NCBI GenBank assembly: GCA_002898795.1
Contig: BEIG01000008.1
Span: 1-51,531, forward strand
Direction of reading: 5' to 3'
DNA length: 51,531 nucleotides
Source of the DNA: a bacterium HR30
GTDB taxonomy: Bacteria > Desulfobacterota > Binatia > HRBIN30
The notes under the pieces were generated by a model. That model searched no databases and was not told the origin of the DNA. It saw nothing but the letters and a program-made list of their open reading frames with translations. This document shows positions 2,487 to 30,934 of the stretch, piece by piece. Position 1 is the first letter of the stretch. Every line of letters begins with the position of its first letter. Both the position numbers and the translations under genes were made by a program.

Positions 2487-2501
2487 CCCTACCTCCTCTG
2501 T

Positions 2502-7707: not shown

Positions 7708-9500
7708 CCCGCTGTTCCTACTTGGGGCATGATGAGCCCGTGGCTGTACAAGCGATAGAAAAACCCTTTGCGCGCGAGCAGTTGCGCGAACGTTCCCCGT
7801 TCGACGATGCGGCCGCGATCCAAGACGAGAATCTGATCCGCTCGCTGCACCGTGGCCAGCCGATGTGCAATGACGAAGGTGGTTCGATTCCGCGTCACCG
7901 TGAACAGAGCGTCGAGGATGGCTGTTTCCGTAGCCAGATCGACGGAAGACGTCGGCTCGTCGAGGATGAGGATGGGCGAGTCCCGCAGGAGCGCGCGTGC
8001 GATGGTTAGGCGTTGACGCTCGCCTTCCGACAAGGTCGTGCCTTGGCTCCCCAAGACCGTCTCGTACCCGTTCGGCAGGCGTTCGATGAAGGAGTGAGCC
8101 TGGGCGAGCCGCGCGGCACGCTCGATCTCGGCTGGCGAGGCCTCAGGTCGGCCATAGGCAATGTTTTCCCAAACGGAGAGCGGAAACACAATGGGCGGCT
8201 GTAACACCATCGTGATCGCTTCCCGTAAAGACCGCAGGGTGAGGTCACGAATGTCGATTCCATCGATCAGGATGCGCCCGACATCGGGATCGTAAAAACG
8301 AGGGATCAAACTCACTAGCGTGCTCTTGCCGGCTCCCGTGGGGCCGACAATGGCGATGAGTTCCCCTGGAGCGGCTTCGAAGTCGATATCCACCAATGTC
8401 TGCTTGCCTCGCTCGTAGGAAAAACTCACGTGTTCGAACCGCACGCGACCGGCGGGTCTTCGGGCAAAAACCCGTGAACCGTCCCTGACCTCGGGCGCCG
8501 TGGCCAGCAGTTCCAGAACGCGCCGCAATCCCGCACGCGCTCCTTGTACCGAGCCGTATGTGGAGAAAATGGCTTGCAGCGGTCCGTACAAGGACGCGAG
8601 GTAGTTGAGAAACACTACCAAGTCGCCGGCGCTCAGGCGCCCGCCCCACACCCGCTGCGTTCCAAACCACAACACCGCGGCGCTACCTGCTGCAAGCAAC
8701 AAGCCGGTGGAAGCGCCAAAGGCGGTTTGCCACAGGTATAGCCGCAAGTGCGCCTGCAAGCTGGCTTCGCTGCGTTCGGTGAATGCGGCATGCTCCTCCG
8801 GTTCCTTGCTAAAAGCTTGCACGACTTTGACCGCCGACATCGTCCGCTGCACGTGGTCGTAGACACGGCTTTCGCGCTCCCGCGCCTCGCGTGCCGTGCC
8901 TGCTAGTTTCCGCTCCATGAGGAACAGGACGGCAACCAAAGCCGGGCATACCGCGGCAGCGAGCGCCGTGAGGAGCCAATCCATCTGGAGAAGCACGAGG
9001 AACATGCCTGCCAGCAGTGTGGCCGACGCCAGAACCGGGAAAACCCCATTCATGGCGAGAGTCTGGATCGCATAGGTGTCGCTGGTCACACGGTAAATTA
9101 GGTCCCCCACCGAGGCGCGCGTGTGGAACGAAAGCGACAAGCGCTGGAGGTGTTGGTACAAGCGGCTGCGTAAGTCGGCCACCATGTTTTGGCCTATGGC
9201 GATCGTGGTGTAGTTGTTCCAAACCTGCACTACGCCAAGAACGGCGTAGATTGCCACCAAGCCTAGTGTGGCCAGGATCAACAATCTGGATCTTTCGGCC
9301 ATGCTGGGGGGAAGCCACGCTGGTGGTTGATTGGGCAGCACGTAGTCCAAGGCGATCTTCAGCGGCCAGGGCTTGGCCAACTCGAGCACCGTGATCAGCG
9401 CCACCTGCGCCAAACCGAGGACAAAGCGCCCCCGATACGGCCAAAGCGCGTTCAACACGAACGGGAGAATCCGCGGCGTGGGCGGCCGAGAATCAGCCAC
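7704..9500 (-). CDS. ABC transporter, fused permease and ATP-binding protein (MsbA-type exporter)
   Basis: Walker A GPTGAGKSTL, signature LSEGERQRL, Walker B ILILDEPTSSVD; six-TM N-domain. GTG start at 9500 (VADSRPPTPRILPF) overlaps the upstream gene by 8 nt and is more likely than 9617. Confidence 0.93.
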   Translation of the reverse strand: MADSRPPTPRILPFVLNALWPYRGRFVLGLAQVALITVLELAKPWPLKIALDYVLPNQPPAWLPPSMAERSRLLILATLGLVAIYAVLGVVQVWNNYTTIAIGQNMVADLRSRLYQHLQRLSLSFHTRASVGDLIYRVTSDTYAIQTLAMNGVFPVLASATLLAGMFLVLLQMDWLLTALAAAVCPALVAVLFLMERKLAGTAREARERESRVYDHVQRTMSAVKVVQAFSKEPEEHAAFTERSEASLQAHLRLYLWQTAFGASTGLLLAAGSAAVLWFGTQRVWGGRLSAGDLVVFLNYLASLYGPLQAIFSTYGSVQGARAGLRRVLELLATAPEVRDGSRVFARRPAGRVRFEHVSFSYERGKQTLVDIDFEAAPGELIAIVGPTGAGKSTLVSLIPRFYDPDVGRILIDGIDIRDLTLRSLREAITMVLQPPIVFPLSVWENIAYGRPEASPAEIERAARLAQAHSFIERLPNGYETVLGSQGTTLSEGERQRLTIARALLRDSPILILDEPTSSVDLATETAILDALFTVTRNRTTFVIAHRLATVQRADQILVLDRGRIVERGTFAQLLARKGFFYRLYSHGLIMPQVGTAG

Positions 9501-12030: not shown

Positions 12031-12335
12031 GCCCTCACTGGATAGCGAAAGCTTTTCATGAAGGAAAACAGACCGGCCACACGGTGCGAATCCGATGAAT
12101 CTTGCCGGGTAACCTTGCCAGGGCTTGGCGAGCCGAGACGAAGAGGTCGAGGCGGTGCCGCCACCTGAAAACAGCATGCTCGAAGATGGATGGTGTTCGG
12201 CAAGCACGGGCACGGGACCCGAGCGCTCGCCCGTGGCCCCCTCGGTTCGGGGGGAGATTTTCCGACTCGTTGCACGTTTATTGCGGCGTAGAAGCGTGAT
12301 AGAAAAAAAACCGTCGACGCAAGGAGACAACACCC

Positions 12336-12869
12336 ATGCTGGACGAGATCTTCTCCGAAGAGGAAGAGATCCAAGCCGAACGCGAAGCAGAGGCAGCTAG
12401 GTTAGGAGCACAAGTGCTGGGGCTACCGATCAAAGAGCTTTCTACTCTGAAGCCGCCGGTTTGCGTTCCGAGAGAGGCTTCCTTGCGGGAGGCGATTCGG
12501 CGCATGAACGAGTCGGGCGTGGGTTGCGTTCTGATCGAGGATCACGGTCGCTTGTGTGGAATCTTTACCGAGCGCGACGTGCTGACGAAAGTTGTCGGCC
12601 AGCCTCTCGACCTCGATCACGAGCAAGTACAAGCGTTCATGACGCCGGACCCAGAGGTGCTCTCGCCCGACGATCGCGTGAGCTTTGCCTTGAACTTGAT
12701 GACCGTCGGAGGCTTTCGCCATGTACCGCTGGTAGACGAGGGCGGCCGACCCGCAGGAGTCGTGTCCATGCGCAACGTGGTCGACTACATGGTCGAAGTC
12801 TTCCGCACCGAAGTGCTAAACCTGCCACCTTCACCCCGCCATCTCGTGCATTCTCGCGACGGCGGGTGA
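12336..12869 (+). CDS. CBS domain-pair protein
   Basis: MNESGVGCVLIEDHGRLCGIFTERDVLTKVV and LMTVGGFRHVPLVDEGGRPAGVVSMRNVVDYMVE; AAGGAG RBS upstream. Confidence 0.9.
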   Translation: MLDEIFSEEEEIQAEREAEAARLGAQVLGLPIKELSTLKPPVCVPREASLREAIRRMNESGVGCVLIEDHGRLCGIFTERDVLTKVVGQPLDLDHEQVQAFMTPDPEVLSPDDRVSFALNLMTVGGFRHVPLVDEGGRPAGVVSMRNVVDYMVEVFRTEVLNLPPSPRHLVHSRDGG

Positions 12870-13031
12870 CGCGGGATCCTTCGGGCAACGGGTGGGCAAA
12901 GCTACACGTTGGGATGCAGCCTGCCGGGGGCCGAACGTGTAAGAAAAGGTGCGGTGTTCTTCTGCCGGTGTGGTTCCGTGCATCCGTTAGTCCGCCATTG
13001 CCCCAGTGGCACCCGAGAGGTTCTGGGCCAC

Positions 13032-15629
13032 TTACAAGTCGGAGCCAGGTTGCAAAAGCTCGAGGTCGTCTCGGTCGAGATGGATGCGTACTACCTTACG
13101 CGACCACGGGTAGAGCAGGGGGGCATTGGGGGGGTCGTGTCGCGCCACGGCAAGGAGCGAGGAGTCATCGATCCAAGCGACTTCAAAGAAATCCAGCTCC
13201 GGGTCGGACCAAGTTTTTACCGTACGCTCGGTTAGGTCCAAGACGTAAACTTGCCGGCGTGTGCGCGGGTACTGACGTGTCGGGGCTGCCGCCAGGGCGA
13301 GGCTACTGCCGTCGGGGCTCAGGGCCATGTCGCTGAGCATGATCGCCCCTTGCACCACGGCACGTGCTGGCGTTGCTTCGCGCGGGACTTCCCAAATGTC
13401 CCACGTGAGCCCATCGGGAAAGCCAACGACAAAGGAGTCGTTCGTCGCGCTCCAATCGACAAAGGGCAGGCTTCCGTCTACGCGCAAAACGGTCTCCAAA
13501 GACTTTTGATTTTCGTTCCACATCAGCAGCGAGCTTTGCCCCGCATCACTCGCCACCACCCCAAGATGGTTCAGATTCGGAAGGGGTAGGATCGCTTCGA
13601 TGGAGCTGTCAGCTACACGCAGAAGCACGTGTGCTCGGCCGGAAGGACCGTAGCGCACTACCTTCTTGCCCACTGCCGCCACAATGGCCCCTCCGTCGGC
13701 AGGCACCGCGGCCGTTCCGGCGCCGACTCGCCGACGGCTACCGTCGGCCTCCAACACAACGACCGTGCCTTGTTCCCGTGTCGGGCCAGCCAAGGTGGTC
13801 ACGAACCACCCGTGCTCAGGGTCGAGGCGCGGAGCTTGGAGAATTCCGCGTTCGAACTCCCACTCCCTCACCTCTCCTCCCGATACCCGCAAACGCGCTC
13901 GAGGCTTGGACCAGGCAAAGGGTTCACCCGTGACGACCAACGTTCCGCGCTCGCTCGGCGCGACGAACAGAGGCTCCGACCGTCGAGGGTAGCGATTATT
14001 TTCGCGGTTGGTGTCTGCCCATTGCAGGAAAGGGTCGACGAGCACTTCGGCCTCGGCATGGTCCAGGCGAATTTCGCTTGGGGGTACGAGCTCCAGACGC
14101 CGCGGCTCGCCCCCACCAGGCTCACGGATGAGCACTGTGACTGGCCACTGCCATTTTGCGTTCCCCGTGTTGCTCAGGACTAAAGTTCCAGGGGCCTGGG
14201 GATCCACGGCGAAGTCTAGGGTTGCTCGGCCTCTGACGAACGCCTCGAAGAAATCCCCCAGGGATCGGCCACTCACCCGCTCGAACACTTCCTGTACCTC
14301 GGAAGCCCCGATCTCCTTGGTTGGGTAGGTTTGCAGAATTTCTCGCAACGCATTGAGGAAAGCACTGTCGCCCACGATGTGGCGCAGCATCCACAGAACG
14401 TACGCTCCCTTGCGGTAAATCGTTTCGCGCCCGCGGGCTTGCGGCAGGGCGTTGTCGAGCACCGTCATTTCGGTGAGCGCCTTTTGCTCCACCGGGTCGT
14501 AAAACTCGCCGAGCAGCCGTTTCACGGCGGCATCTGGCCCGTACACCGTCTCGCTTGCCAGAAGACTGCTTAGCTCGGCAAAGCCTTCGATGATCCACTG
14601 CGCCGCATTTCCCGTGCGTAACCAGCCTCCGGTGACCGTTGCGCCCCACCAACAATGCGCAAGCTCATGAGTCACCAGCCCGAAGCCAGCATCTTCGCTA
14701 GCCAGGGCACGGCGGGGGATGCCAATTCCGCCGGCCCCATCATGAAACGCACGTTGGAGCGTAGGGTGCACGAAAAGGCTGACGACGGGCAGGCGACAAG
14801 CGCCCAACCGGTCGACCAGTGTTTGGTACCCCGTCTCGATGGTGTCGAGCAGAGCAACTGGGTCAAGCTCGTCTCCCTGGGGAACGTATGCGCGTAGCCG
14901 AGTCGCGCCAGCCCAGCGCTCTTGGTATCGGTAGGCGCCGGCCACGAGGCCAAACCCAGCAATCGGTTCGCCGCTTTCCCACCGGTGTTCGCGATGAGTT
15001 CCTCGCCAGTTGACCTCCGTGGCTGTGGTCGTGTCCACCAGTTCCCAGGAGCTTGGTAACTCCACGCGGGCTTCCAGGGAGAAAAAACTCTGAGCGTCCA
15101 ACGGGTACCAAAGGCAGTCCGGACCTAACAAAACTTCAGCGGCGGTAATCCGGCAGTCTTCCGGGTGCAGGCGTGGGCTGCCTTCGTACTCCACCCGGAT
15201 TGCTTGCACAGAGGTGCCAACGCCACTGGATAGAATTTGCACCACAGGCCCGAGTTGGACCCAGGGCACGGGCGTTGGTTCTGCCGTGGAACTTACGTTT
15301 TGGATCCGAAGCACATGGAAACCAGGGTCGAGCAGAAAGTACCAAGCGGCACGTTCGTGCTCGAGGCTGCGGAGGCGCAAGGTGGCCACGGCGACGAGTT
15401 CTCTCCGATCTGGTTCCACTCGGGCTTCGAGCGAGAGAGCTTCGATCTGCTGGCCAGCCACGACGGAATGGAGCCGGGCCAATGCCGCTCGCATCACCGT
15501 CAAGTCTGGAGCGTGCACCGTGTGCCAGCAAAGAAACACCACTACGAGGAGTACCACCGCCACCAGCCACGCGCCCACGTCCACCAACCCCTGGGCAAAC
15601 CGGGCGACTCTTCGAGCCCACGCAAGCAT
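13032..15629 (-). CDS. M1-family-like membrane-anchored metallopeptidase with C-terminal propeller-like region
   Basis: GLVTHELAHCWWGATVTGGWLRTGNAAQWIIEGFAELSS = HExxH-x18-E; N-terminal TM (LVDVGAWLVAVVLLVVVFLCW); C-terminal repeats such as MALSPDGSSLALAA. Confidence 0.85.
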   Translation of the reverse strand: MLAWARRVARFAQGLVDVGAWLVAVVLLVVVFLCWHTVHAPDLTVMRAALARLHSVVAGQQIEALSLEARVEPDRRELVAVATLRLRSLEHERAAWYFLLDPGFHVLRIQNVSSTAEPTPVPWVQLGPVVQILSSGVGTSVQAIRVEYEGSPRLHPEDCRITAAEVLLGPDCLWYPLDAQSFFSLEARVELPSSWELVDTTTATEVNWRGTHREHRWESGEPIAGFGLVAGAYRYQERWAGATRLRAYVPQGDELDPVALLDTIETGYQTLVDRLGACRLPVVSLFVHPTLQRAFHDGAGGIGIPRRALASEDAGFGLVTHELAHCWWGATVTGGWLRTGNAAQWIIEGFAELSSLLASETVYGPDAAVKRLLGEFYDPVEQKALTEMTVLDNALPQARGRETIYRKGAYVLWMLRHIVGDSAFLNALREILQTYPTKEIGASEVQEVFERVSGRSLGDFFEAFVRGRATLDFAVDPQAPGTLVLSNTGNAKWQWPVTVLIREPGGGEPRRLELVPPSEIRLDHAEAEVLVDPFLQWADTNRENNRYPRRSEPLFVAPSERGTLVVTGEPFAWSKPRARLRVSGGEVREWEFERGILQAPRLDPEHGWFVTTLAGPTREQGTVVVLEADGSRRRVGAGTAAVPADGGAIVAAVGKKVVRYGPSGRAHVLLRVADSSIEAILPLPNLNHLGVVASDAGQSSLLMWNENQKSLETVLRVDGSLPFVDWSATNDSFVVGFPDGLTWDIWEVPREATPARAVVQGAIMLSDMALSPDGSSLALAAAPTRQYPRTRRQVYVLDLTERTVKTWSDPELDFFEVAWIDDSSLLAVARHDPPNAPLLYPWSRKVVRIHLDRDDLELLQPGSDL

Positions 15630-15776: not shown

Positions 15777-16316
15777 GTGTCGACTTGGACGCGCTGGCTA
15801 CGGGAGCAGTGGTTGGTTGTTCGTGTGGTTGGAACTTTTTTGCTGGTCATTCTCTTGGTTTTCGTGGCCACCGACTACGCACCAGTGGCCGACCGTGTGA
15901 ATTTCGCCGCGTGGTTGGCACAGTTTGCTACGTGGGGCAGCTCGGTTCTGCTGCAGCTCCTCGGCCCGTTTCTAGGCTTTACTGTTGCCGTGGAGGGAAC
16001 CCGAATTAGTGCTGCAGGCTTTGCAGTGGACGTTACGGAAGCCTGCTCGGGCGTGGTTCCGACCGCGATTTACAGTGCTGCGGTGATCGCCTATCCAGCA
16101 TCCTGGAGCGCTCGCTTGCTTGGGTTGCTTCTCGGGGGCGTGGTGATTCACACGTTAAATGTGTTTCGGGTCGTTGGCCTGTTTTTGGTTGGACTGTTTG
16201 CCAACCCGTACTTTCACTACACGCATGTGTACCTGGCTCAGGCCGTGATCATCGTCGCTGCGGTGGCCACTTGGTTGTACTGGGCCCAACGGTTTGTTCA
16301 TGTCCCTAGCCGTTGA
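15777..16316 (+). CDS. xrtH: Exosortase/archaeosortase family protein, exosortase-H-like
   Basis: 179 aa polytopic; FAVDVTEACSGVVPTAIYSAAVIAYPASW (catalytic Cys), VIHTLNVFRVVGLFLVG (Arg), [33 protein letters not shown] (His). Short length and partner gene fit XrtH. GTG start. Confidence 0.85.
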   Translation: MSTWTRWLREQWLVVRVVGTFLLVILLVFVATDYAPVADRVNFAAWLAQFATWGSSVLLQLLGPFLGFTVAVEGTRISAAGFAVDVTEACSGVVPTAIYSAAVIAYPASWSARLLGLLLGGVVIHTLNVFRVVGLFLVGLFANPYFHYTHVYLAQAVIIVAAVATWLYWAQRFVHVPSR

Positions 16317-16917
16317 GCCTCTAAAGTTTTTTGCTCGCCTGCTGCTGGCCTTTGTCGGGTTTTTTGCTGCTTGGCTGGTCGTGGGTCCGGGGTACACACG
16401 CTTCTTGGCGGCGCTGGCTGAGTTGACCGTAAGCGTGGTGGACCGGCCAACGCACGTGTGGTCTGCAGGAACGACGTTGTTCTTTTGGCCGCGAGGTTAT
16501 CAGCCGCCCAACACACCGCCGAGCATCGCTGCGGAGTGGATTCACGCGAACACCATCCTGCTCCTCGCCTTGATGGTGGCCACCCCAGCTTCGACGTGGT
16601 CAGCGAAGATCAAGCGCTCGGCTTTGGCTTTTCTTTTTGTGCTGCTGTGGCAAGTGCTCGATGTTACCTTGGCCATCCAGTTCGGGTACGCGACCCAATT
16701 GGATCCGCACTCTTACACCGCAAGCACGAGATACCGGCTAGCTTTGTTCACGAATTTGGCCATGTATTTGGATACCCAGATTGTCCCCTTCATGATTTGG
16801 GCGGGAATTCATTTTCGGCAATTGCTGGCCATGGCGGGAACGATGAGAGGCGCCGCTGCGGCAGCTCGAGCAGATCAAGAGCAAGGGAAGTCCCGCCCAC
16901 AACGTCATTCCGCGTGA
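16294..16917 (+). CDS. Exosortase-H-associated-type membrane protein
   Basis: 207 aa with several TM segments; overlaps the 3' end of the exosortase-like gene; [36 protein letters not shown]. Assigned by size, topology and linkage. Confidence 0.65.
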
Positions 16918-19900
16918 ATGGACTCCAGCCGCAGGGCACGGCGCGGTACGGACGGTGAGCTACCGGTTGCTTCGATCCACAAAGTGACCGGGCCCGCTAA
17001 CTCCTGGGCGCTGGCGACGGCAACCCGCAGTCGCCCCTCGCTTGCGTGCTGGGCCAAGAGCCGAGCAGACCGATTGTTGGCTCGAAAGCGCGCCCGAACC
17101 GATCGGAGTAGCTTGGGATCGTAACGGACCGTGGCCTCGAAAGCAGTAAACGGTTGCGAAGGGTTGATCTCGTAAGACACTCGGTAGACCAGCCTGTGGC
17201 CACGCCTTACCAGCACCGCGGAGCGCACGTGGAAAGCGGTGGAGATGTGCCGGTTCAAAGCCGATGATGCTTGCCACGACCCGTTCACGTCGCCGAGGAG
17301 CAAGGCGGCAAAGTTTTGCCCAGCCGCGGCTTGGGTCAACGGAGCATACGCTATGGCCCCGGCCACGCATGGGTTTGCAGAGGGTTGCGGTGGAATGATT
17401 TGCTGGTTGGGCACCGGCTCGGGCACCGGCACAAAAACCCAGGGTGAGCCGCAATGGATTGCTGCAGGGAAGGCACTGATCGCGCCAACCACATACTGTA
17501 GGACCAGGGCAGCGTCAGCGGCCGTCACTTCGCTCGAACCATTTACGTCGGCGGCCAAAAGCTCGGCAGCGTCGAGTGGCTGCATCCCCACAAGGTACTG
17601 TAAGATTACCACTGCATCGCTCGCCGTGACCACAGGGGACGACGGCACGAGGGAGAACGAAGGCTCGATTTGAACGGTCCCCATCGGCACCGAGGTCAAA
17701 GCGAAATTGCCACTGGCATCGGTGGTCACTTCGGTCGGTGGGTTCAAAAGCCGGAGGTGAACTCCAACTACCGGCTGTTGGCTCGCGTAGTGTCGAACGG
17801 AGCCAAACACCGAGGTGGTCGGCACGGGCGTACGTGTAGGCGAAGGCGTGAAGGAAGCTGTGCCGGTCGAACTCGGAGTGCTGCTGGGCGACGGGGTGTG
17901 CGTCCAGGTGCCAGTTTGGGTCGCTGTTGGGCTTGCCGTCGGTGATGGGGGTGGAGTGGCAGTTGGAGAGCGAGTTGCTGTGAAAGACGGTGTAGCTGTG
18001 CGTGTGGCGGTAAAGGACACAGTTGCTGTAGGAGTTCGAGTGAAGGTGCCACTTGGTGTCGGCGAAAAAGACGGCGTTGGCGTACGCGTGGGAGAAGAAG
18101 AGGGCGTCGGGCTCGCCGTGGGAGTGAAGCTTGGTAGAGGCGTGTGAGTGGGTGTGGGGCTGGCGGTGTGCGTGCGGGTAAAAGTTTGTGTGGGGCTGGG
18201 TGAGCGCGACGGTGTGGACGTCCATGTTGCTGTTGGCGTTCGGGTAGAGGTGCGAGTGGCAGTCGACGTTGGGGTGAGGGTTAGGCTTGGGGTTGCGGTT
18301 AACGAGGGGGTTGCCGTCGCAGAAGCGGTGGGACTGGGCACCGGCGAAAGAGTTTGGGTGGGTGTCAACGTAATCGTGGGTGTATGGCTCGGGGGCAAAG
18401 TCGGAGTGACCGTTGGCGTGTCGGCGGGCGTTGCGGTGATGCTCGGTGTGGCCGTTTGCGTCGCCGTGGGAGAAGTAGTGGGCGTCAATGTGTAAGTGGC
18501 TGTCGCACTCGGTGTGGCTGTGAAGGAGGGAGTCGAACTCGGTGTGGCCGTTCGGGAGGGCGTTGCCGTTGGTGTTTCGGTGCGCGTGGGAGTGGGCGTT
18601 CGTGAAGGAGTGAACGTGCGGGTTGGGGTCATGGTGTAGGTCGGGCTCGGGGTGCGAGTCGGCGTTGTGGTGAGCGTAAACGTGCGGGTTGGCGATGCGG
18701 TCGGCGTCGAGGTGGGCAAACTGGTATTGGTCCATGTTGCCGTGGGTGTGATCGTGGGCGTAGCTGTTGGGGTGCGGGTATCGGTCGGCGTAAATGAAGG
18801 ACCCGCGTACGGATATACGAACTGCATTGCGGCAATATCGTCGGCCCGGATTTGGGCGCATCGACCGTCGTTGTGAGCCCGAAAGTACATCGTGGCGTCT
18901 TTCAGCGTGAAGTTGGGCTCGGAAGCGTTTTCCGAAGAGTGCCCGAGGCCAATGCTGTGGCCCACTTCGTGAGTCAGTACCTCGGCTACCAGGCACGGAG
19001 TCCAGAAGCTCGGGCATTGGGTTGACCAGCCATCGTTGAGCACGATCTTGCCAGCAGTGATTGCCACGAAGGTGGTGCCGTTGATGGTCTTTTGGTTAGC
19101 GTAGCTGGCACAGTATCCACCGATGCCGAGTGTTCCGGAGCAGCCGCTCGGATCGGCGATCTCGCCTCGTGGGTCATCGAAGATGATTCGATTGAACGCG
19201 CAGCCGCCGTAACCCAGTGGTGTCGGTGTGGGAAAACCCGGGGCCGGCGTGGGCGTGGGACTAATGAGTCCGCCGTAACTCAGAACGAGACCGGCTCCGG
19301 AAACGCTGCTCCAAGCTGCTAGAGCATCGCTCACTGCTTGCATGGAAGCAGCGACGCCGAGGCCAGCGTCGGTGGTGCTCACGTAGGACACGGGTGTGCC
19401 ACTGTCTGCCTCGTGCCAGCGCGCAGGCGGGCTGCCGAGCAGGGTGAACGCCGCTCGGTATTCGTAGAGTGTGTCCTCGGACTCAGACAGCGGAGTAGAA
19501 TCCGGTAGCTGGGCGGAGGTCGCCGCACCCGAGCCAACCGTGCGCCGAATGCGTTCAACAAAGGTCTGCAAATTTTCTTCGTAAGGCGCCGGTGAGGCAA
19601 AACCACCACCCGGGTTGAGGAGTACTGTGCCCTGGCCAAGTTCCCGAACGACGATTGACTCCCCATCACTGTGTCGGCGAATCCCGAATTTGCCCCACCC
19701 AAGAGCGTTGGGCTGCCAGTTCCCCTGCCCATTCCGCACGAGGAACAAGACGACTTCTTCGTGCAGGAAGAACTGCGGCAAGCCGAAAATCCACTCGAAG
19801 CGGTCGCCCACCTGACCGCCAGGCAATTCCACGACAAGGTTGGGGTGGGGGAGCACCCCTTTGAGAACCTCGTACACCTCGATTTCGATCCGAGTGAAGA

Positions 19901-20084
19901 TGCCTCGATCGTCGTCGAGAGCCGATCCGATGGAGCTAACTCGTCCGAGGACGATCGCTTCCGAACTTTCTACCAGCACCTCGTCGCTCATCGGTACGAA
20001 CGTGGTCCCTTCGCTCGTCGAGGCGACGATTGTGAACATCAGGGTGAGCAAGCAGGCTAAGAACAAGGGCAACTTGAGAATCAT
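16905..20084 (-). CDS. Secreted matrixin-like metalloprotease with Thr-Pro-rich linker, dockerin-like repeats and C-terminal cohesin-like domain
   Basis: Signal peptide ([20 protein letters not shown]); [21 protein letters not shown] = HExxHxxGxxH; long TPTxT tract; [24 protein letters not shown]-terminal [18 protein letters not shown]. Confidence 0.85.
17815..18797 (-). repeat. Thr-Pro-rich low-complexity coding tract in the matrixin-like gene
   Basis: Encodes [24 protein letters not shown]...TPVPTT; reads as GTxGGxGT-type repeats on the plus strand. Confidence 0.9.
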
Positions 20085-20189
20085 GAGACGCTACATCGAA
20101 TTCGGGTTCCACCACTTGTTTTTTGCCAGAGGGAAGGGCCAGCTCACAAGCAAGAAATTTTCGGCCCGGCTCAGGTGGCGCCGTGACCG

Positions 20190-23100
20190 CTACTCGACGA
20201 TCGCGCTGACAATCCGAATCCAGGGGGCACGAGGTGCTGTGCTGCCGTCGAACACGAGCCAGGCAACGACTTCGTTTCCGCCCTGGGCTTGCGTACGGGC
20301 CAAAGCAATACCGAGCGAATCGGCATGGACAACGTAGGCGGCGAGAGATTTGTCGCTGTTCGTAGGCAGTGAGACACGTGGCGGTTCGAGTCGCCGGCTA
20401 TCGAACCACACACGGATCGTCGCCGCATTCCACGAACCTTGCGAACTAACCGTGATCGGCACACGCCACCCACCGCGTTTACGGGTCGGTTTCCCCACGC
20501 GGACGAGTGCTCGATCGGGTGTCCTGGTACCTATGTGCCTCGAGCGCGCGACCATTGTCGAGCTTGCAGTATCGAAGCTGCCGTTGCAGTCACCGACGAT
20601 CCCAGCCAAAAAGTCGATGCCGGTTACGTCACTCCTTGCATCGGCGAGCGATACTTGTAGCACCGGATTGCACTGGCCCGTTCGAGCTGGCGTTGGCGTG
20701 GCGATCGGAGGTAGAGCCCCATTCGGTTGAACTGCCCAGGAACCGATGCAGGAGTTGGGGTCGGACGCGCCAACTACATACCTCAAGATGGCTGCAGCGT
20801 CCCCCGCAGTAAGGTCCCCGCTTCCGTTTGCGTCGCACAGGACTTGTTGCATCGGGGTCAACTGTGAAACACCGGTCATGGCCCGTAACACGACCACGGC
20901 GTCGGCGGCAGTGACGATCGCAGTGTTGCCGCTCATTCTTGGAATCAGACCTTGGGCTTCTTCCGGCAGTGGGACAACGCTGACCTCACCGGGAGGAACG
21001 TCTTGGATGTTGTAGATCCCATCCGTGCCCGTGGTCCCACTCCGAGTGACCCCATTGCTATCGGCGCGCACCGGCACGTTGGGAAGAGGGCGATCGGGCG
21101 CAAAATAAGCGACTGCTCCACTCAACCGAATTGCCGCAAGCGTGGGGGTGGGCGACGGGGAGGGGCTTAGGGTTCGTGTTGCTGTGCCGGTAGCAGATGG
21201 GGTGCGCGTGGACGTACTTGTCACCGTTGCCGTCGCCGTACGGCTGGGGGTGAGTGAGGATGTGGGGGAAGAAGATGGTGTTGGCGTGCGCGTCGGCGTC
21301 AGAGTGGGCGTGCTGGAGCTGGTCGGGGTTGCGGAGGGGGTGCGTGTAGGCGTCCAGGTAAAGGTGGGTGTCGGGGTCGCGGTGACGGTGAAGGTACGCG
21401 TCGCGGTAGCGGTTGGTGTGGAAGTGCGTGAAGGGGTGTAAGTGCGTGTCGCCGTGGGGGTCATGGTTGCGGTGGAACTGGGTGTGGCAGTTCGCGTGGG
21501 CGACAGGGTTGGAGTGGGCGTTTGCGTCGGGGTTCGTGATGGCGTCCACGTCAGGGTAGGCGATGGTGTGTTGGTCGGGGTGCGCGTGGCGGTGTGTGTC
21601 GGAGTGTTGGATGGAGTGAAGGTCGGTGTGCGAGTTGGAGTGTCGGTGGGGGTGGACGTGGAAGTGCGCGTGAATGTGGGCGTGAAGGTAAGCGTAAAGG
21701 TTGCGGTGTGTGTTGGCGTGAAGGTTTGGGTTGGGGTTGGTGAGAAGGTTCGAGTTGGCGTGTAAGTTGGTGTCGCGGTTGGCGTCGCCGTCGGGGTTGG
21801 CGTTCGAGTGTTGGTCGGTGTGAAACTATTGGTCGGGGTAAACGTTTGGGTTGGCGTGCGGGAGGGGGTGAACGTCGGTGTCCAGGTTGGCGTCGGTGTG
21901 TGTGTTGGTGTGAACGTGGGCGTAGGTGTCAGGGTCGGAGTCGGGGTCCGCGTTGGAGTCGGAGAATTCGTAGGAGTGAAAGTCGCGGTCGGAGTGTAAC
22001 TCGACGTCGGAGTGAAGCTTGGCGTTGCCGTCGGTGTCGCGGTGAAGGTGGCTGTAGCTGTAGCGGTAGCCTTCGGCGTGGCTGTGGCCGTTGCCGTTGC
22101 CGTGAAAGTTCGGGTGGGCGTGGCACTTGCCGTGAACGTTGCGGTGCGAGTGGGCGTAATCGTCGGCGTCAGTGTCAGAGTTGCCGTTGGTGGCGGCGGG
22201 ACAAGTTCCAAACTGACCGCGCGGACTCTGGCTGCTTCGGGAACCGAAAGAAACAGGTGTCCGTCGCCATCGATGGTGAGTCCCATGACTCGACTGATCC
22301 CGGCGGCCAAGGCGCTGCCCCCGTCTCCCGAGTCGAGGCTCGCGCCCGTGCCGGCCACGGTTGTGATGATCCCTGTGGCCATGTCCACCCGCCGAATCCG
22401 GTAGTTGCCGGCGTCGGCAATGAACAAGTTCCCGAAGCGGTCAAAGGCAATGCGCAGGGGCCCCGAAAGCTGTGCTTGTGTGGCCGGTCCGCCATCACCC
22501 GTGAAACCTGCCCAACCCGTGCCGGCAACCCGCTCGAGGAGGCCCGCACGGATACGCCGCACCACATTGTTGCCCCGGTCGACGAAGTACACGTTACCGT
22601 CGGGTCCAATGGCAACGTCGCTGGGCGAACCCAAGGGTGACTGATCAGCCACAGCTCCGTCGGGCGGATTGCCCCAACTGCCATTTCCCGCGATCGTCGT
22701 GATGATTCCGGCTTCGACCTTACGGATGCGGTTGTTTTGAAAGTCGGCGATGTAGAGAACACTGCCATCAGGGGAAACGGCAACCGCATACGGGTTGGCC
22801 AGTGTGGCTCGAGTTGCCGGGATGTTGTCGCCATTGTAGCCGAACCCACCCGTGCCGGCGATGGTGGAGATCGTACCGGTGGCAGCGTCGAGTTTTCGCA
22901 CGCGATGGCCGCCTAGCTCCACGATGTAAAGGTTGCTGCGTTCATCGCTGTCGACATCGAAAGGATTCGTGAGCTGCGCAGCCACCCCAAGTCCCCCATC
23001 GCCACAGGAGGAGCCCGAGTCGCACGGTGTGCCGTCGCCCGCAACGGTGGTGATCGTACCGGTGAGAGAACTTACCACCCGCAGGCGGTGGTTCGCGCTA

Positions 23101-24419
23101 TCCGCGATGTAAAGCTCGATGCCATTGGCGGCGGCAAGGGGTCGAACCAAGAGCCCGATTGGACCCACCAGGGCATTTTCCGCCGCACCGCCGTCGCCCA
23201 CGCCACCGCCGACGAAAGGAGCAACCGTGCCGGAAGCTAGAATCGCCCGAGCCCGGTTTTCCACATGGGGTGGCTGGGTTACGTACTGACCCACATAAAT
23301 TGAGCCTTTCACCCAGTCTGCCACGAGGCCGGTGAGCATGGCGAAGCTCGTTTCTGTGGCGAGCTGGCCGTCTGGAGATGGGGAACGCACACCGGTTCCC
23401 GCAACGGTTTTGATGATCGATTGCGGTGTAACCACGCCGGCAGTGGCGTCGATGCGGCGTACGCGGTTGTTGCCCACGTCGGTGAAATACAAATTACCCG
23501 CCCAGTCGAACGCCAACCGCCCTGGATTGAAAATCCGGGCGCTAGCGGCCGGGCCGTTGTCTCCGCTGAACCCCTGCACGCCATCTCCCGCTATGGTCGT
23601 GATGATCCCTTGAGAGTCAACACGGCGAATGCGGGAATTCCCATAATCGGCAATGAAGACATTCCCGAAACCATCGAGCGCTACGTGCCACGGGTTAGCT
23701 AGCTTTGCTTGAGTTGCCGGACCGTTGTCACCGCCGAACCCCCACGCACCGGTGCCGGCAAAGGTGGTAATGATTCCGTCGGGTCCGATCTTCCGAATCC
23801 GATTGCCGTCTCCTTCAGCCACGTACAGGTTGCCTGCAGAGTCGAAAGCAACACCCCGAGGACCATTGATGCTCGCTTTGGTAGCAGGTCCACCATCGCC
23901 GCTACTGAACGGCCGGCCATCACCGACGGCGGTGACGATGGTTCCGTCGCGCGAGATTTTCCGGACGCGGTGGTTCAGCGTGTCCGCGACAAACACCGCC
24001 CCGTCGGCCCCGCAGGTGACATCGGTGGGGAAGTTCAGTTGGGCAGCGACAGCCGGCCCGCCGTCGCCGGAAAACCCACGTATTCCAGTACCTGCAACTG
24101 TGTCAATAACCAGCGATTCCAGGTCAACTTTGCGAATGCGATGATTCAGACCGTCGGCGATAAACAGCGTGCGGCCGCACAAGGCCATTCCCCGTGGATC
24201 GACAATGCCGTTGATGGCCAAGCTGCCGTCGCCGACCCCGCCCCCGACCACGGTATCGATTCCGCCCTGAGGTGGAAGGTCGAAAGCCAAACTCGAAGAG
24301 GCAAAAATCAGCCTGGCGAGAACCATCGCTACCAACCCGGTTGCACGGATACGCTCGGGCGCAAAGCGGAAGCGCGGCGGTCGTCGAAAGGAAGTTCTCA
24401 TATCAGGACCTTGGGTCAT
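20190..24419 (-). CDS. Secreted NHL-repeat protein with Thr-Pro-rich linker, dockerin-like and cohesin-like C-terminus
   Basis: Repeated [52 protein letters not shown] units; long TPT tract; [28 protein letters not shown] at 24401 ([11 protein letters not shown]) is an alternative start. Confidence 0.88.
21138..22200 (-). repeat. Thr-Pro-rich low-complexity coding tract in the NHL-repeat gene
   Basis: Encodes [23 protein letters not shown]...SPTPTLA. Confidence 0.9.
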
Positions 24420-24483
24420 TCCGCTTGCCCATCACATCTTCCGTAAGTGCTGAAATTTTCTCGCGGGTCCCTCGCCGAACCGG

Positions 24484-24505
24484 GGCGCAGGTAACCCGCT
24501 GCGCC
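24484..24505 (-). promoter_or_regulatory. Hairpin in the leader/promoter of the NHL gene
   Basis: Perfect 7-bp inverted repeat GGCGCAG / CTGCGCC with 8-nt loop. Confidence 0.5.
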
Positions 24506-24517
24506 AAATCCGTGCCA
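24502..24517 (-). promoter_or_regulatory. Sigma54-like promoter upstream of the NHL gene
   Basis: Minus strand TGGCACGGATTTGGCG; GG-N10-GC spacing with an intact TGGCACG -24 element. Confidence 0.4.
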
Positions 24518-24520
24518 GAC

Positions 24521-24535
24521 GAGGCTACCCGCCTC
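24521..24535 (-). promoter_or_regulatory. Hairpin upstream of the NHL gene
   Basis: GAGGC-TACCC-GCCTC: 5-bp stem with 5-nt loop. Confidence 0.4.
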
Positions 24536-24540
24536 GATAA

Positions 24541-24582
24541 GGCAAACGAGCACAGTGTGCCTACGATCAGCCGCAGTTTGCC
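24541..24582 (-). promoter_or_regulatory. Inverted repeat upstream of the NHL gene, possible activator site
   Basis: GGCAAAC (24541-24547) / GTTTGCC (24576-24582), enclosing palindrome GCACAGTGTGC (24550-24560). Confidence 0.4.
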
Positions 24583-25353
24583 GGCGAAAAAATGCCACCA
24601 TGGTTACGTTGACCGCCGCCCGCACCGACTGTGTACGTCGGCCCCTGCACTGCAAAAGCTAGGGCTTTGACCCCTTGCACATCCAACAACCGCCTCTACC
24701 GCCATCCATTGCCTCGGGTTACGGGCCCAGGGAGCTTGCGGGTTCACAATACATCTCGCAAATCAGCAGGCAAATCAACCAAGAAAATTTGTTGGTTCTT
24801 TGCTGGTGCCAACCGATCCGCCACCGAGTTCGAAGTTTTCAGATGAGCGAAGAAGTGCAGGCACCGAAGCAATGGCCGAAGGGACAGTTTGTGACGCTGT
24901 TCCCTTTGGTCAGGACCATTTTCAGGTAGCGAGCGAGACGCCTGGTTTCGCCGGGAGCGGTTCGGGGCGGCCAGATCAGTGCCCGTAAGGAAAACGCGTG
25001 TGCGAGTGGGCGTGAAAAGCTTTGGACGTGTTGACCTGCACTGGAGGGGGTAGGCGATCCCAACCATGGTCATGCCTGGCGAAGGCGCCGAGCACCTGTC
25101 GCTTCCGAATGAAACTTCATGGACCCAGTCCCTGGTCGCCGCATAAAGAACCGAGGGGTTCGCTCTCGTCGGGGTAGGGTCCCCTATTGACTAAGAAGGA
25201 GGGTGCTGCAGGCGGGGAGACTGCATCCGGCACGGGTGTTTTCGCCGTTTCGTTGGCTTCGTGCTGCGACCTTGACCATCTAAGGTTGCGGTCGCGGTCA
25301 AGTCCGCGAAGGCCGATCTGAGACAAGGAAAAGTGGACACCTTGAAGGCACCA

Positions 25354-25431
25354 TGGTTTGCGAACCCTTGGTGGCTCTTGCGCAAACATTTGTGGTTTGC
25401 GGTTGACATGACCTTGCGCAGCATGATACGC
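25354..25431 (+). promoter_or_regulatory. Candidate promoter/operator of the first sorting-tail gene
   Basis: TGGTTTGCG at 25354-25362 and 25393-25401, with inverted copy CGCAAAC at 25381-25387, then TTGACA (25403-25408) and a weak -10 (ATACGC region). Confidence 0.4.
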
Positions 25432-25504
25432 AGAAGTCCGCTTTTTACGGGTGCTGTTTCGTGCCTGAGGTGAGGGTGGCCTCGCAGCAAGAAGGAGTTT
25501 GCGG

Positions 25505-26782
25505 ATGGTTCGAGGACAAATGAAGCGGGTGGTTGTGGCTGGACGCAGCGTTCTTGGTGGATTTAGCGCATTTGTTGCGGGGACGTTGGGGATTGTGGGG
25601 ACATCTCACGCGCAGTTTAGCCTTGCGTTTAACCAACGAGCCTCGAACGGAACAGTTTACGAAGTGCTTGTGGTGCCAAACCCACCGCTCTCTGCGGGTG
25701 CCGACGAGATGCGGATCACGACCATTGCGGGCTCTACATCTGGTGTGCAATCTTGCTCCTCGACTGGTGGAACCTCCGGCCAAAGCACCGCCGCAGTTGC
25801 TGGCGTAGACCCGAACATTGGCTCCCTGCACCCGTTTACTGCCATCCGCCGTACGAACGTGCTTCAACCGAGTAACGTTTCGTCGGTGACGTTTAGCTCA
25901 GGCGGTGCGGGCCGGCTTACCATTGGAGGCATCGATATTTGTGCGAACTCGGCTGACTGTAGTGGAGGCGATCCCGACGCTTCGATCTTCGACCTCGATG
26001 GCAACGTGGTCGCTGCTGGAACCGTTACGGGGACTTCGGTGCCAGCGGCCTGTATCGCGACGGGTGTCACCGCCCTGTGCTCATCGGGTAGCTTCACCAC
26101 CTTCGGTTTTAACTTGCCACGCGATAGTACGACCAAGGCTTGCCAGAGCCCACCGACGACAAACCGGACAGTGTGCGGAGCGCCTCCGACAGATGGTTTT
26201 ACAGTGCCTCCGGGGCACGTGATTGTTTTTATTTACAACGGAAACCTTGCGAATACCGGTTTTAGTGTCGGGGCTGCAGGTTTCGGTATTGATACGGATG
26301 GTTCCAATAACCCACAGTGCAACGCTAACTCTGTGATTACGGCTGATGGCCAGAACCCCAGTGCTCCACCTCCTCCCCCACCGACGCCGACGAATACGCC
26401 GACGTTGACCCCCACACCGACAGACACTCCCACGCTGACGCCCACGAATACGCCCACTTTGACGCCTACTCTTACGCCCACTTTGACCCCGACTCTGACC
26501 CCGACGCTGACGCCTACGCAAACCCCGACGAACACACCCACCTTGACCCCCACGCCGACCAACACTCCGACATTTACCCCGACTCAAACCCCGACGAACA
26601 CACCAACGCAGACACCGACCCGTACCTTCACGCCGACGCTGACGCCCACGGTTACCCCGTCGCCAACGCCTCCCCCCATTCCGGTGATCCCGTCACCGAT
26701 GTCGCCAGCCGGCTTGACCATGATCGGCGGACTGGCAGCGGCGCTGGTCTGGATGATGCGTCGTGCTATCCGTCGAAGCTGA
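25505..26782 (+). CDS. Secreted protein: unknown N-terminal domain, Thr-Pro stalk, C-terminal sorting-like tail
   Basis: AAGGAG RBS 7 nt before ATG 25505; signal sequence; [35 protein letters not shown]-terminus [38 protein letters not shown]. Confidence 0.85.
26360..26683 (+). repeat. Thr-Pro-rich coding tract
   Basis: Encodes [36 protein letters not shown]. Confidence 0.9.
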
Positions 26783-26820
26783 GGCTTTGAAGAATAAGTA
26801 CTGTTCGGGGCTGCGAGGCT

Positions 26821-28167
26821 GTGAGGAGAACGGAAAGTTATGGGCTTTCACGGTTTCGCAGCGTCGCAGCATTGGCTGCGGTGGTGGCTTGTGCGGTCGC
26901 AGGTAGCGGCGTCGCATATGCGCAACTGAACCAAGCTTCTTCGCAACGAGCGGCTGACGGCACGGTTTACCACGTCATTATTGTCCCGCCCGGACCATTG
27001 AACGCTGGGGCTGAGGAAGTTCGTGTCACTACCTTAGCTGGTGGTGTGCAGGGGTTGATATCTTGCTCGGGGGTGGTGGGCTCACAAGCGGCTGCGGCGC
27101 GGGCACTGGTGGGTGCGGATGCTTCTGTCGGCCAAACCCTTTTTCCTTCGGCGCAGATCTCGCGTACGACCGTGTTGAATCCATCGTCCCTCACCGTTTC
27201 CTTCTCCCCAGGAGGAAGCGGCAGACTCACGTTTGGATCGGGTCCGACCGGGTTGCAAATCTGCCGGAATCCGGCGGATTGTACCGGTCCGGAATCGGTG
27301 GTGAGCCTTGTACCATTGAGCACTGCCGATTCCAGTGTACCGAAGGCATGTGTGCGCTCGAACGTCGGTGCGGGGTGCACAAGCTCCACGGTGACGACGT
27401 ATGGTTTCGGCTTGGATACGAACAATGACGGAACATGTGATTTTGCACCGACGACCGACACGAACATCTGTGCGTCTGCGCCGGCGGATGGTTTTAGTTT
27501 GCCTGCGGGTCGTGCCATCGTGTTCGTGTACGACAGCGGATTGACGAATACAGGCTTTACCATCGGTGCTGCAGGTTTTGGCATCGACACCAATGGCACA
27601 AATGATCCGCAGTGCAGCGCGGGTACCGTCGTGAGCGCAGATGGTCAGAGCCAAAGCGCCCCGCCCCCTCCACCGCCGACCTTCACTCCGACGAACACAC
27701 CCACCGACACCCCAACGCCAACCAACACGCCCACCGAAACTCCAACGGAAACCCCCACATCTACCCCGACGCCAACCCCCACCGACACGCCAACGGCGAC
27801 GCCCACGGACACGCCTACGCATACGCCGACGGACACACCGACCAGCACCCCCACCAACACTCCGACGAACACTCCCACGAACACACCGACTCACACGCCA
27901 ACGCACACACCAACGCCTACCCCAACCGACACTCCCACCCCGACCCCCACGTTTACGCCGACCCATACGATGACCCCGACGCCGACCCCGACTCCGACCC
28001 CAACCCCCACACGCACGCGTACGCCTACACGGACGCCTCCGCCCATTCCGGTTGTGCCATCGCCGATGGCGCCGTCGGGCGTGATCATGATCGTGAGCCT
28101 GCTGGTTGCTCTAGCTTGGCTCGTAAGGCGATCGGCTGGGCCATCGGGTGGCCGTAGGTCACAGTAG
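26821..28167 (+). CDS. Tandem paralog: secreted protein with the same N-domain, Thr-Pro stalk and C-terminal sorting-like tail
   Basis: [48 protein letters not shown] is colinear with the upstream gene; C-terminus [44 protein letters not shown]. Confidence 0.85.
27657..28043 (+). repeat. Thr-Pro-rich coding tract
   Basis: Encodes [36 protein letters not shown]. Confidence 0.9.
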
Positions 28168-28426
28168 CGCCTTCTTCCGACAAGGGAACTGGCCGCTTTC
28201 ATGACGCGCGCCGGGGAAATCTGACGGTCCCTCCTGCGCGTCCTTAGCTGCGTGAGGCTGTTGTCGGTCCAAGCTGAGGTTGCGTGAGGCTGCGACTTCT
28301 CTTGGCGCCAACAGATCCCGGACGGTCAGCTCTGCCCTGGTAGGCAGCGAGTAGTCAACCTGCGCCGCAGGGTGGGGCGGCGAAAAGAAAATCACTTGCG
28401 AAGGCGGGTCCGGTGAGAAACAAGGA

Positions 28427-30934
28427 GTGGCGTCAAGTCGCATGGCCAAAGGATGGCGGGTTGGCATGGGAGGACCAGAAAATCGGTTGAAACTTGTTGC
28501 CCCGGTTCAGTGGGTTCGCGGGGTGTCCCTCGCTTTGCTGCTCGCGAGCACACACGGCCTCCTCCCAGCCGCGCACGGGCAAACGAAAAACGTGGCACTC
28601 CAGCCGCCGAGCGTAGCGGTGCCGGTGTCCGGTACGGTGACCTTGGAGTTGCGGATCGACAATCCGAGCGAAATTATCGGCTATAACTTCGGCATTAGTT
28701 ACGACCCCTCCCTGCTCGCCGTCGATAGCGACTTGAGCTTTAACGCACCGAATTGCCTTGCTCAGGGGAACCGCGCAGACCCTGGCAAAATCTGCATTGC
28801 GATTGCTTGTCCCAATCCGTTGCCCCTGTCGAACACGAAACTCGCCGAGATTGTTTTCCGAGGCGTTGCCAACGGCACGGCCGTGGTGACGTTTGCCAAC
28901 GTCACCTGCGGCTCGAGTAGTGTTCCCGCATGTCTGCTGGAACGGGAGAGTGGTGGTTCCTTTGCCTGTGCAACTTCGGGCACGACATTCCAGATCGGTC
29001 CCACACCGACGCCGACACCAACCCCGACGGGCACGGCGACATCAACGGCAACAGGAACGAACACAGCCACCGTCACGCCCACTCCCACTCGCACGCAGAC
29101 TCCGACGAACACGCCTTCGGTAACTCCAACTGCAACGTTCACTTTCTCGCATACAGCCACCCGCACTGCGACACCGACAGCAAGTTCGACTCCAACGCCG
29201 TCGTTTACGTTCTCGCCTTCACCGACGCGGAGTTTCACACCCACGCGCACCGCAACCACCACACCGACTCAGACGATGACAGGCACTTCGACCCGCACTT
29301 CGACGGCTACTGCCACGGCCACGCATACTCGCACGGTTAGTCCGACTCCGACGGAAAGTGCTTCGCCGACGTTTACGGCGGTGGCGACCAGTACGCGCAC
29401 ACCAACCGCTTCGAGCACTTTTACGCCGAGCGTGACAGGGACCGCTACTCGGACGCCGACCGCTTCGCCCACGGCGACGCTGACCCCTTCGCCCAGTGTC
29501 ACGCCGAGTCAGTCTCCCACTGCAACGCAGACCAGAACGGTCACTCCGACACCCTCACCAAGTTCGAGCCCGACGTGGTCGGCCACGTGGAGTCCAACGT
29601 GGACCAGAACCAGTACGCCCAGCCCAACGCTCACCGCGACGGCCACTGCAACGTCAACCCGCACCCCCAGCGTAACGCCGTCAAACTCGGCTACGCCAAC
29701 GGCCACGTTCACGCCTACTCGGACGCTTTCGCCCACCCTTTCGCCCACACCATCGATTACGCGAACTCCGACGAGCACCATTACCGGCACTCGGCCTCCA
29801 ACGTTCACCCCAACGAGGACGGCGACTGCAACGGGTACATCGAGCTTTTCGCCAACAGCGACGCGTACGGGAACACCGACGCGGACCCCAACGAGCTCGG
29901 CCACACGAACTGCCTCGCCCACGGCCAGCGTGACCCCAACGCCCTCGAACACGGCCAGCTCGAGCCCCACGCGATCCCTCACGCCGACGCCCACAGCTTC
30001 GTTTTCTGAAACACACAGCCCTACCGCGTCTCCAACGCGCACGCCTTCTCTGACTGCAACGCCCTCACCCTCGATTACGGCTACGGCGAGCCTCAGCCCA
30101 ACTGCCACAGAACCGCCGGAGGCATCACCGACATCCACGGGGACACCCACTCAGGAATTCACGGCGACGCGGACAAAGCCACCCACGATTACACGCACGC
30201 CAACGGTAACCCCAACGTTTACGCATTCCCCGCTTCCCACAGCCACGGCTTCTTCGACGCTCACCGCGTCCCCAACGGCAACAGCCACGGACACCGTGGC
30301 GCTTTCTCCAACGGAAACGCCGACCGGTACGGCCACCCCTTCCGAAACTCCGACCGTGCTGCCGTCGCCCACACTCACCCCAACGCTCGAGCCCACGCCG
30401 ACGAGCACGCCCACTTTAGCGGTTAGCCCTACCGCAAGTCCCACCGTGGCCGCATCTCCTTCCTCCACCGCTACCATGACGCCTGAGCCCTCTCCCACCG
30501 AAGAACCATCGCCGACGTTGTCGCCTACGGAGACGACCGCCACACCCAGCGCATCACCGACGGCCGAGGCTACGCATACGCCGGTGACCACTCCACAGGC
30601 TTCGCCCACGCCAAGTGCCACGGCCACCGAGCTTCCGCCTTCGCCAACCCCGACGGCGGAACTGAATCCTTGCCCGGGAGATTGCGACGGCGATGGGCAA
30701 GTAGCGGTTTACGAGATTGTGCGCATGGTGAACATTTTGCTGGAAACTTCTCCTGTGGAAGTCTGCATTGCCGGAGACCTTTGTGGCGACGGACGCATTA
30801 CGGTTGACGAAATCGTCCTTGCTGTTCGCGCGCTACTGCTGGGTTGTCCGTTCCCGGTTTCCCCAGATCGGTGCGCCTTGGAAAACCTTTCGGGGCCGCT
30901 GCAGTTACACGTAGCGGAACAAAGCGTGGGTTAG
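28427..30934 (+). CDS. Secreted cohesin-like domain protein with about 550-aa Thr-Pro/Ser stalk and C-terminal dockerin-like EF-hand pair
   Basis: [44 protein letters not shown]...[12 protein letters not shown] (cohesin-like); C-terminus [25 protein letters not shown]...[26 protein letters not shown]. Confidence 0.85.
28999..30660 (+). repeat. Very long Thr-Pro/Ser-rich coding tract
   Basis: Encodes [23 protein letters not shown]...[11 protein letters not shown] over about 1.66 kb. Confidence 0.9.

Follow-up and report, generated by a model that had tools for sequence, protein, structure and literature searches.

A candidate dedicated exosortase and a tandem pair of stalked proteins sharing an uncatalogued C-terminal tail in an order of Candidatus Binatia

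Which of several large secreted proteins encoded beside an exosortase are its targets? This question is raised by contig C8 of a 3.7 Mb MAG (i.e. genome G000) of an uncultured soil and groundwater bacterium belonging to Candidatus Binatia. The window (i.e. the whole stretch of 51,531 nucleotides analysed here) had been described in a first-pass annotation as encoding an XrtH-like exosortase pair directly before five Thr-Pro-linked surface proteins. Comparisons were made with 15 genomes of the order within a set of 148 class genomes (i.e. 133 class genomes outside the order) and with a phylum draw of 295 genomes (i.e. 297 minus G000 and G007). Relatives in public records were Candidatus Binatia or 'Deltaproteobacteria' MAGs, the closest being CALAMI010000008.1 with an exosortase identity of 85%. 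An Rfam scan of the window gave no match and no relative was present among the viral contigs searched.

The exosortase gene (15777..16316, forward strand) encodes 179 aa and was classified as XrtH-like, group A, using TIGR04177, PF09721, an alignment of orthologs and a tree clade with support of 97/99. Codons for the putative catalytic residues Cys90 (EACSG; 16044..16046), Arg131 (NVFRV; 16167..16169) and His150 (FHYTHVY; 16224..16226) are located on the same strand. The three signatures had been recognised in the first-pass annotation, and the residues C90, R131 and H150 are invariant across the aligned members of groups A, B and C (i.e. orthologs and paralogs); their catalytic role is presumed from general knowledge of exosortases. 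The overlapping partner membrane protein was also confirmed, as its gene (16294..16917, forward strand) shares 23 bases with that of the exosortase and adjoins group A in 13 of the 15 order genomes, i.e. 13 of the 14 with a group A exosortase, the 14th ending at a contig border. An AlphaFold2 model of the exosortase generated from eight sequences had a pLDDT of 81.6 and consisted of helices with a small strand insert; Foldseek detected no match to this model in the PDB at E ≤ 0.001. The XrtH assignment is marginal, as the window protein scored 86.4 bits against the TIGR04177 cut-off of 86 (a margin of 0.4 bit) and also passed PF09721, whereas the tested group A orthologs scored 67-77 bits (75.4 in G004, 76.7 in G008, 74.8 in G007 and 67.4 in G009, the last scoring better with XrtX than with XrtH). 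Membership of the partner in the XrtH partner family (NF041730, XrtH_assoc) was not supported, with a score of 21.9 bits for the window protein, under the cut-off of 35, and no match for the partners of G001, G008 and G009.

Five large Thr-Pro proteins with different modules are encoded at the locus as described, but the exosortase pair does not directly precede all of them since the matrixin and NHL genes are on the minus strand. The matrixin-like protease (16905..20084, minus strand) has a Thr-Pro tract and a C-terminal module with CarboxypepD_reg-like, dockerin and cohesin-like parts, recognised with Pfam and a module profile; Dockerin_1 (PF00404) passed with 29.1 against 22.9 while Peptidase_M10 reached 23.5 against a cut-off of 24. 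The NHL-propeller protein (20190..24419, minus strand; identified by Pfam and neighbourhood) contains a Thr-Pro tract and a dockerin-like plus cohesin-like C-terminal module, and its gene is divergent from a pair of paralogous genes (i.e. the twins). Downstream of the pair, a fifth gene (28427..30934, forward strand) encodes a cohesin-like head (22.5 for PF00963, under the cut-off of 24.1), a very long Thr-Pro/Ser tract and a dockerin/EF-hand-like C-terminus. PF00404 scores were below 22.9 for both the NHL (15.5) and cohesin-like (13.4) proteins, and a profile of the dockerin-type module matched dockerin structures at 2.7e-11. Twin 1 (25499..26782) and twin 2 (26821..28167), both on the forward strand, each comprise a signal peptide (assigned by eye from the sequence), an uncatalogued head, a Thr-Pro stalk and a C-terminal sorting tail. 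The Thr-Pro stalk alone does not unite these five proteins because such tracts are a general linker of G000, where the TPTxTPTxTP pattern had 181 matches on many contigs and none in a reversed control. All five proteins were considered as exosortase targets and this was rejected, as the matrixin, NHL and cohesin-like proteins of G000 have dockerin- or cohesin-like ends without a sorting tail. The proposal of a five-protein exosortase-linked system was upheld for 25499 and 26821, which carry exosortase-type C-termini, and not for the other three; these two likely targets out of five, and the order-wide conservation of the twins, had escaped the first-pass annotation.

The twin C-termini define a tail family, here termed PSP-CTERM, with the consensus PPIPVxPSPxSPxGLLxI...RR (i.e. 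motif, TM and Arg cluster), in which P1, P4, S8, P9 and G14 are invariant. The tail spans 36 residues in twin 1 (26672..26779, forward strand; profile match E 1.0e-19) and 42 residues in twin 2 (28039..28164, forward strand; E 6.3e-16). Matches to a nine-tail profile were present in each of the 15 order genomes, and a 29-tail profile detected 31 tails in the same 15/15 genomes, all with E ≤ 3.3e-12. No match to the 29-tail profile was observed in the 133 class genomes outside the order (E ≤ 1e-3), nor did a tail search detect any in the 295 phylum-draw genomes (E ≤ 1e-4). Tails are arranged as a tandem pair in 12 genomes; two tails are found on separate contigs in G013, one tail near a contig end in each of G005 and G006, and one extra tail in each of G001, G007 and G012. 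All 31 tails have the motif, a hydrophobic stretch and a net positive end, which together with a secretion signal makes them of the broad PEP-CTERM-like kind. Comparison of 29 tails with NCBIfam and Pfam at E ≤ 10 produced sub-threshold matches only and 0/29 matches to the IPTL models (TIGR04174 / PF18203), indicating that PSP-CTERM is a previously uncatalogued tail with no Pfam or NCBIfam model above cut-off and that an IPTL-CTERM/XrtH assignment is at best marginal.

This tail is borne by unrelated heads. Proteins at the pair position in G003 and G005 have heads without detectable similarity to the others, and further carriers are a cohesin in G012 and a protein with another head in G007 C4; the tail is therefore the constant, portable part. 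A motif, helix and Arg cluster would also suit a generic C-terminal membrane anchor from which nothing is cut. This explanation is improbable, as an anchor has no need of a motif of unvarying Pro, Ser and Gly residues ahead of the helix that is common to unrelated heads, and the only order with the tail is one that also has the exosortase. Extra PSP tails were also present on a stalkless protein in G001 (L103:5204-6592) and on a protein encoded beside a matrixin gene in G007 (L104:8299-10050).

Conservation of the neighbourhood, a check proposed with the original claim, was found as full synteny in the window's genus, from the ABC exporter through to the cohesin-like gene, and as partial synteny in the family and in G007. 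Genes for an MsbA-like ABC exporter, a GT2/GH2-like glycosyltransferase and an M1-type peptidase (7704..15629, minus strand) are conserved neighbours; in family f1, the exporter, the glycosyltransferase (a fusion with a GH2-like domain) and the peptidase are conserved beside the exosortase. Within this family, the group A exosortase and its partner adjoin the matrixin-dockerin gene in G000-G004 and G006, the region being cut in G005. The NHL gene adjoins the twin pair in most order genomes, usually in a divergent (head-to-head) orientation and even when the exosortase is elsewhere, and the pair has a cohesin-like gene nearby in G000-G002, G003, G004, G009, G012, G013 and G014. Group A itself and the pair are separated by 7-12 kb in five genomes representing two families (G000, G001, G002, G004 and G007), a linkage with a chance of ~0.4-0.6% per genome by simple distance.

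A tree of 45 exosortase sequences contained 14 group A and 24 group B rows. Group A is single copy in 14/15 order genomes and scored ≥266 bits in the class search as compared to 122 bits for the next best class protein. Both the exosortase ortholog and the tail family are limited to a single order, where their distributions nearly coincide, and they are neighbours in five genomes, in keeping with the surface-display system first envisaged. A dedicated display system is suggested because every order genome has the tag, nearly always on a pair and usually with the same head on a short and a long stalk. With a probability of roughly 0.7, we propose that this is a dedicated exosortase system, in which the 15777 and 16294 products act on the PSP tails of the tandem pair 25499/26821 with one head kind on a short and a long stalk. 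The weight of the order-wide co-occurrence is limited because it represents one clade and not many independent events. Further observations count against a dedicated group A-pair model. Group A is not near the pair in seven order genomes (G003, G008, G009, G011, G012, G013 and G014), and G010 has the twin pair while neither the group A exosortase nor its partner was detected. Synteny between G010 and G008 diverges before the expected group A site and the G010 contig ends ~4 kb past the last match, which fits either loss or an assembly gap and so the absence may be due to either.

Group B XrtH-like exosortases are present in 15/15 order genomes, including G010, and hence fit tail presence at least as well as group A. 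The PSP tails could be processed by the group B enzyme (i.e. C55 in G000), leaving group A with another substrate and an adjacency due to chance or shared regulation. Because B is also order-wide, the distribution by itself gives no basis for preferring A, but linkage to the pair favours A, as it is A and not B that is near the pair in the five genomes, and IPTL-type tails elsewhere offer B other possible targets; we consider processing by group B unlikely. The G000 group B copy (C55:10743-11204; L001, L108) is encoded with a partner-like membrane protein and adjoins an apolipoprotein N-acyltransferase-like gene, and no sorting target was identified near this exosortase.

The locus could also be simply the known XrtH/IPTL-CTERM system, with PSP tails that are drifted IPTL-CTERM sequences. 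The narrow pass of the window exosortase with the XrtH model is consistent with this explanation, as are the shared general shape I-P-x-(L/V)...S-P-x-G-L and the true IPTL tail of the cohesin next to the pair in G003 (PF18203 22.7/20.8). However, no PSP tail matches the IPTL models, the tested group A orthologs have low XrtH scores and canonical IPTL tails coexist elsewhere in 9/15 order genomes. In G010, one such tail gene directly precedes a different exosortase, with C101 (L105:1804-3918) containing an IPTL-CTERM gene, then a group C exosortase (XrtH 92.8 bits) and then a partner-like gene. Drift from IPTL-CTERM is on balance doubtful, though less so than processing by group B. Group C was found in G010 and G008, and these loci are candidates for dedicated systems serving a further type of tail; a tail-bearing gene is likewise 5' of the group C copy in G008 C11 (L124). 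Three XrtH-like groups coexist in the order with at least two tail types, and the near one-enzyme, two-target form of the proposed group A system makes exosortase specificity testable within one order. The literature search found no paper that names IPTL-CTERM together with an exosortase, uses XrtH as the name of one or mentions exosortases in Binatota; key papers may lie outside that search.

The most surprising part of the system is the pattern of the twins. The head of twin 1 (25613..26377, forward strand) has no Pfam, NCBIfam or PDB relative and that of twin 2 (26923..27687, forward strand) was located by head comparison. Profile searches of Pfam and PDB with the twin heads found nothing, Kemp eliminase matches of the head profile were dismissed as chance and an AlphaFold2 model from three sequences was unusable (pLDDT 31). 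Using a simple composition rule for stalk borders, stalks of ~95 aa and ~120 aa were obtained for twins 1 and 2, respectively. In 11/11 complete pairs, the shorter of the two stalks belongs to the upstream copy, with ratios of 1.3 to 4, a pattern that is conservation among related genomes and not 11 independent events.

Heads and tails of the twins have different histories. In genera other than that of the window, both heads from one genome are mutual closest relatives (52-95% in local alignments) and same-genome heads pair as sisters in a head tree wherever both were included; both copies in G003 carry a head without detectable similarity to other heads. Between species of genus g7, heads are 33-46% identical as compared to 75-81% for the exosortases. 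Tail identities in groups g1, f3 and g7 are 70-74% for the same position in different genomes, as compared to 53-58% between positions and 53-62% between the members of a pair. In two groups, tails track gene position, whereas the heads of one genome resemble each other and differ strongly from those of other genomes. At the DNA level, the twins of G009 and of G010 are mostly 80-98% identical over their heads, but identity drops to ~40-60% at the signal peptide and on approaching the tail; the same kind of pattern, less sharp, was observed in G011, G014 and G008. Two in-frame stops occur inside the Thr-Pro stalk of the second G009 twin (L096:9475-11010), reflecting assembly error or decay. From these sequence comparisons, the twin duplication looks old and the heads homogenised, which suggests head-restricted gene conversion as the best reading, with selection for sameness as a possible alternative. 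Homogenisation is not universal because the window's own genus keeps differing heads that are orthologous by position, with 78-88% identity between genomes (local alignments) and 48-55% between twins. For surface proteins, the combination of one head on short and long stalks, homogenised heads and position-specific tails is evolutionarily unusual, and the architecture points to a function needing both heights. A tentative idea, which we hold with less than even confidence, is that the dedicated exosortase presents a single, rapidly diverging recognition head at two set heights, with head-confined gene conversion keeping the twins alike, as for a surface involved in self-recognition or cell-cell adhesion.

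The first-pass annotation had suggested a surface display or scaffold system, and in one reading all five Thr-Pro proteins would form a single scaffold, a cellulosome-like surface complex that the exosortase anchors. Dockerin-type modules on the matrixin and NHL proteins and a cohesin-like protein in the locus are in favour, as are the cohesins with sorting tails encoded next to the pair in G003 and G012, which pass PF00963 (29.2 and 26.2, respectively, against 24.1) and carry IPTL and PSP tails, respectively; the G004 cohesin has a weaker tail-like end. Against this scaffold are the lack of a sorting tail on the window cohesin-like protein, the genome-wide Thr-Pro tracts and cohesin/dockerin specificities that are unreadable from sequence. 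Using cellulosome criteria, the seven locus genes encode no multi-cohesin scaffoldin and no glycoside hydrolase, and one N-terminal cohesin-like domain was scored. Such a scaffold is possible but not favoured, and the idea concerns the dockerin/cohesin modules. The locus resembles noncellulosomal cohesin-dockerin modules (i.e. a cellulosome-type interaction) in having Dockerin_1 on the matrixin protein and, in relatives, cohesins next to the pair, but differs in that the modules here are attached to an NHL propeller and a protease.

In the proposed group A system, the twins would be secreted by their signal peptides and retained in the membrane by the PSP tail. From the published exosortase model (PMC1569441, PMC3237569), we infer that exosortase 15777 and partner 16294 would form a membrane complex recognising PPIPVxPSPxSPxG, the TM helix and the Arg cluster, cut the twins at the motif and pass them to a surface acceptor, with the outcome that one head kind is displayed on two Thr-Pro stalks, one short and one long. 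The NHL and matrixin proteins would probably join the same surface assembly through cohesin-dockerin contacts and not by sorting. This system looks like a variant of XrtH/IPTL-CTERM (TIGR04177, TIGR04174/PF18203, NF041730), in which the exosortase would serve a single tandem pair bearing an uncatalogued tail. Both have a short Cys/Arg/His exosortase, an overlapping partner and a motif-TM-Arg tail on secreted proteins, but here the tail is outside the IPTL models, the exosortase orthologs and partner are under cut-offs and there are usually two tandem targets per genome. Similarities to PEP-CTERM/EpsH are the tripartite C-terminal signal, secretion signal, glycan-synthesis neighbours and diverse target heads. 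The glycosyltransferase and exporter genes beside the exosortase in family f1 are in line with the association of exosortase with EPS (PMC1569441). In contrast, one tandem pair is found here versus a median of eight PEP-CTERM targets per genome, and the sigma-54 motif described for proteobacterial PEP-CTERM genes (PMC1569441) is not enriched in the window, where matches were at chance level only. Single-target sorting enzymes tend to adjoin their target as a 'dedicated system', and one genome has two consecutive targets near its rhombosortase (PMC3237569). The rhombosortase/GlyGly-CTERM system thus resembles this locus in pairing an enzyme with one or two neighbouring targets, but its enzyme (a rhomboid protease) and motif are unrelated to those here. 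The present locus adds an uncatalogued sorting-signal family and a candidate enzyme in an uncultured class.

Other features were noted around these loci. In family f4, Thr-Pro proteins encoded near the pair have a GGCAV...RRRR end, similar to cysteine-containing MYXO-CTERM tails (L096:12421-15021, L098:6676-9252, L099:5022-7445 and L102:9706-10641), and the two that were scanned have beta-propeller heads. Adjoining DUF1501 and DUF1800 genes are present at 1041-3983 of the window, with similar genes beside the G003 exosortase region (L046).
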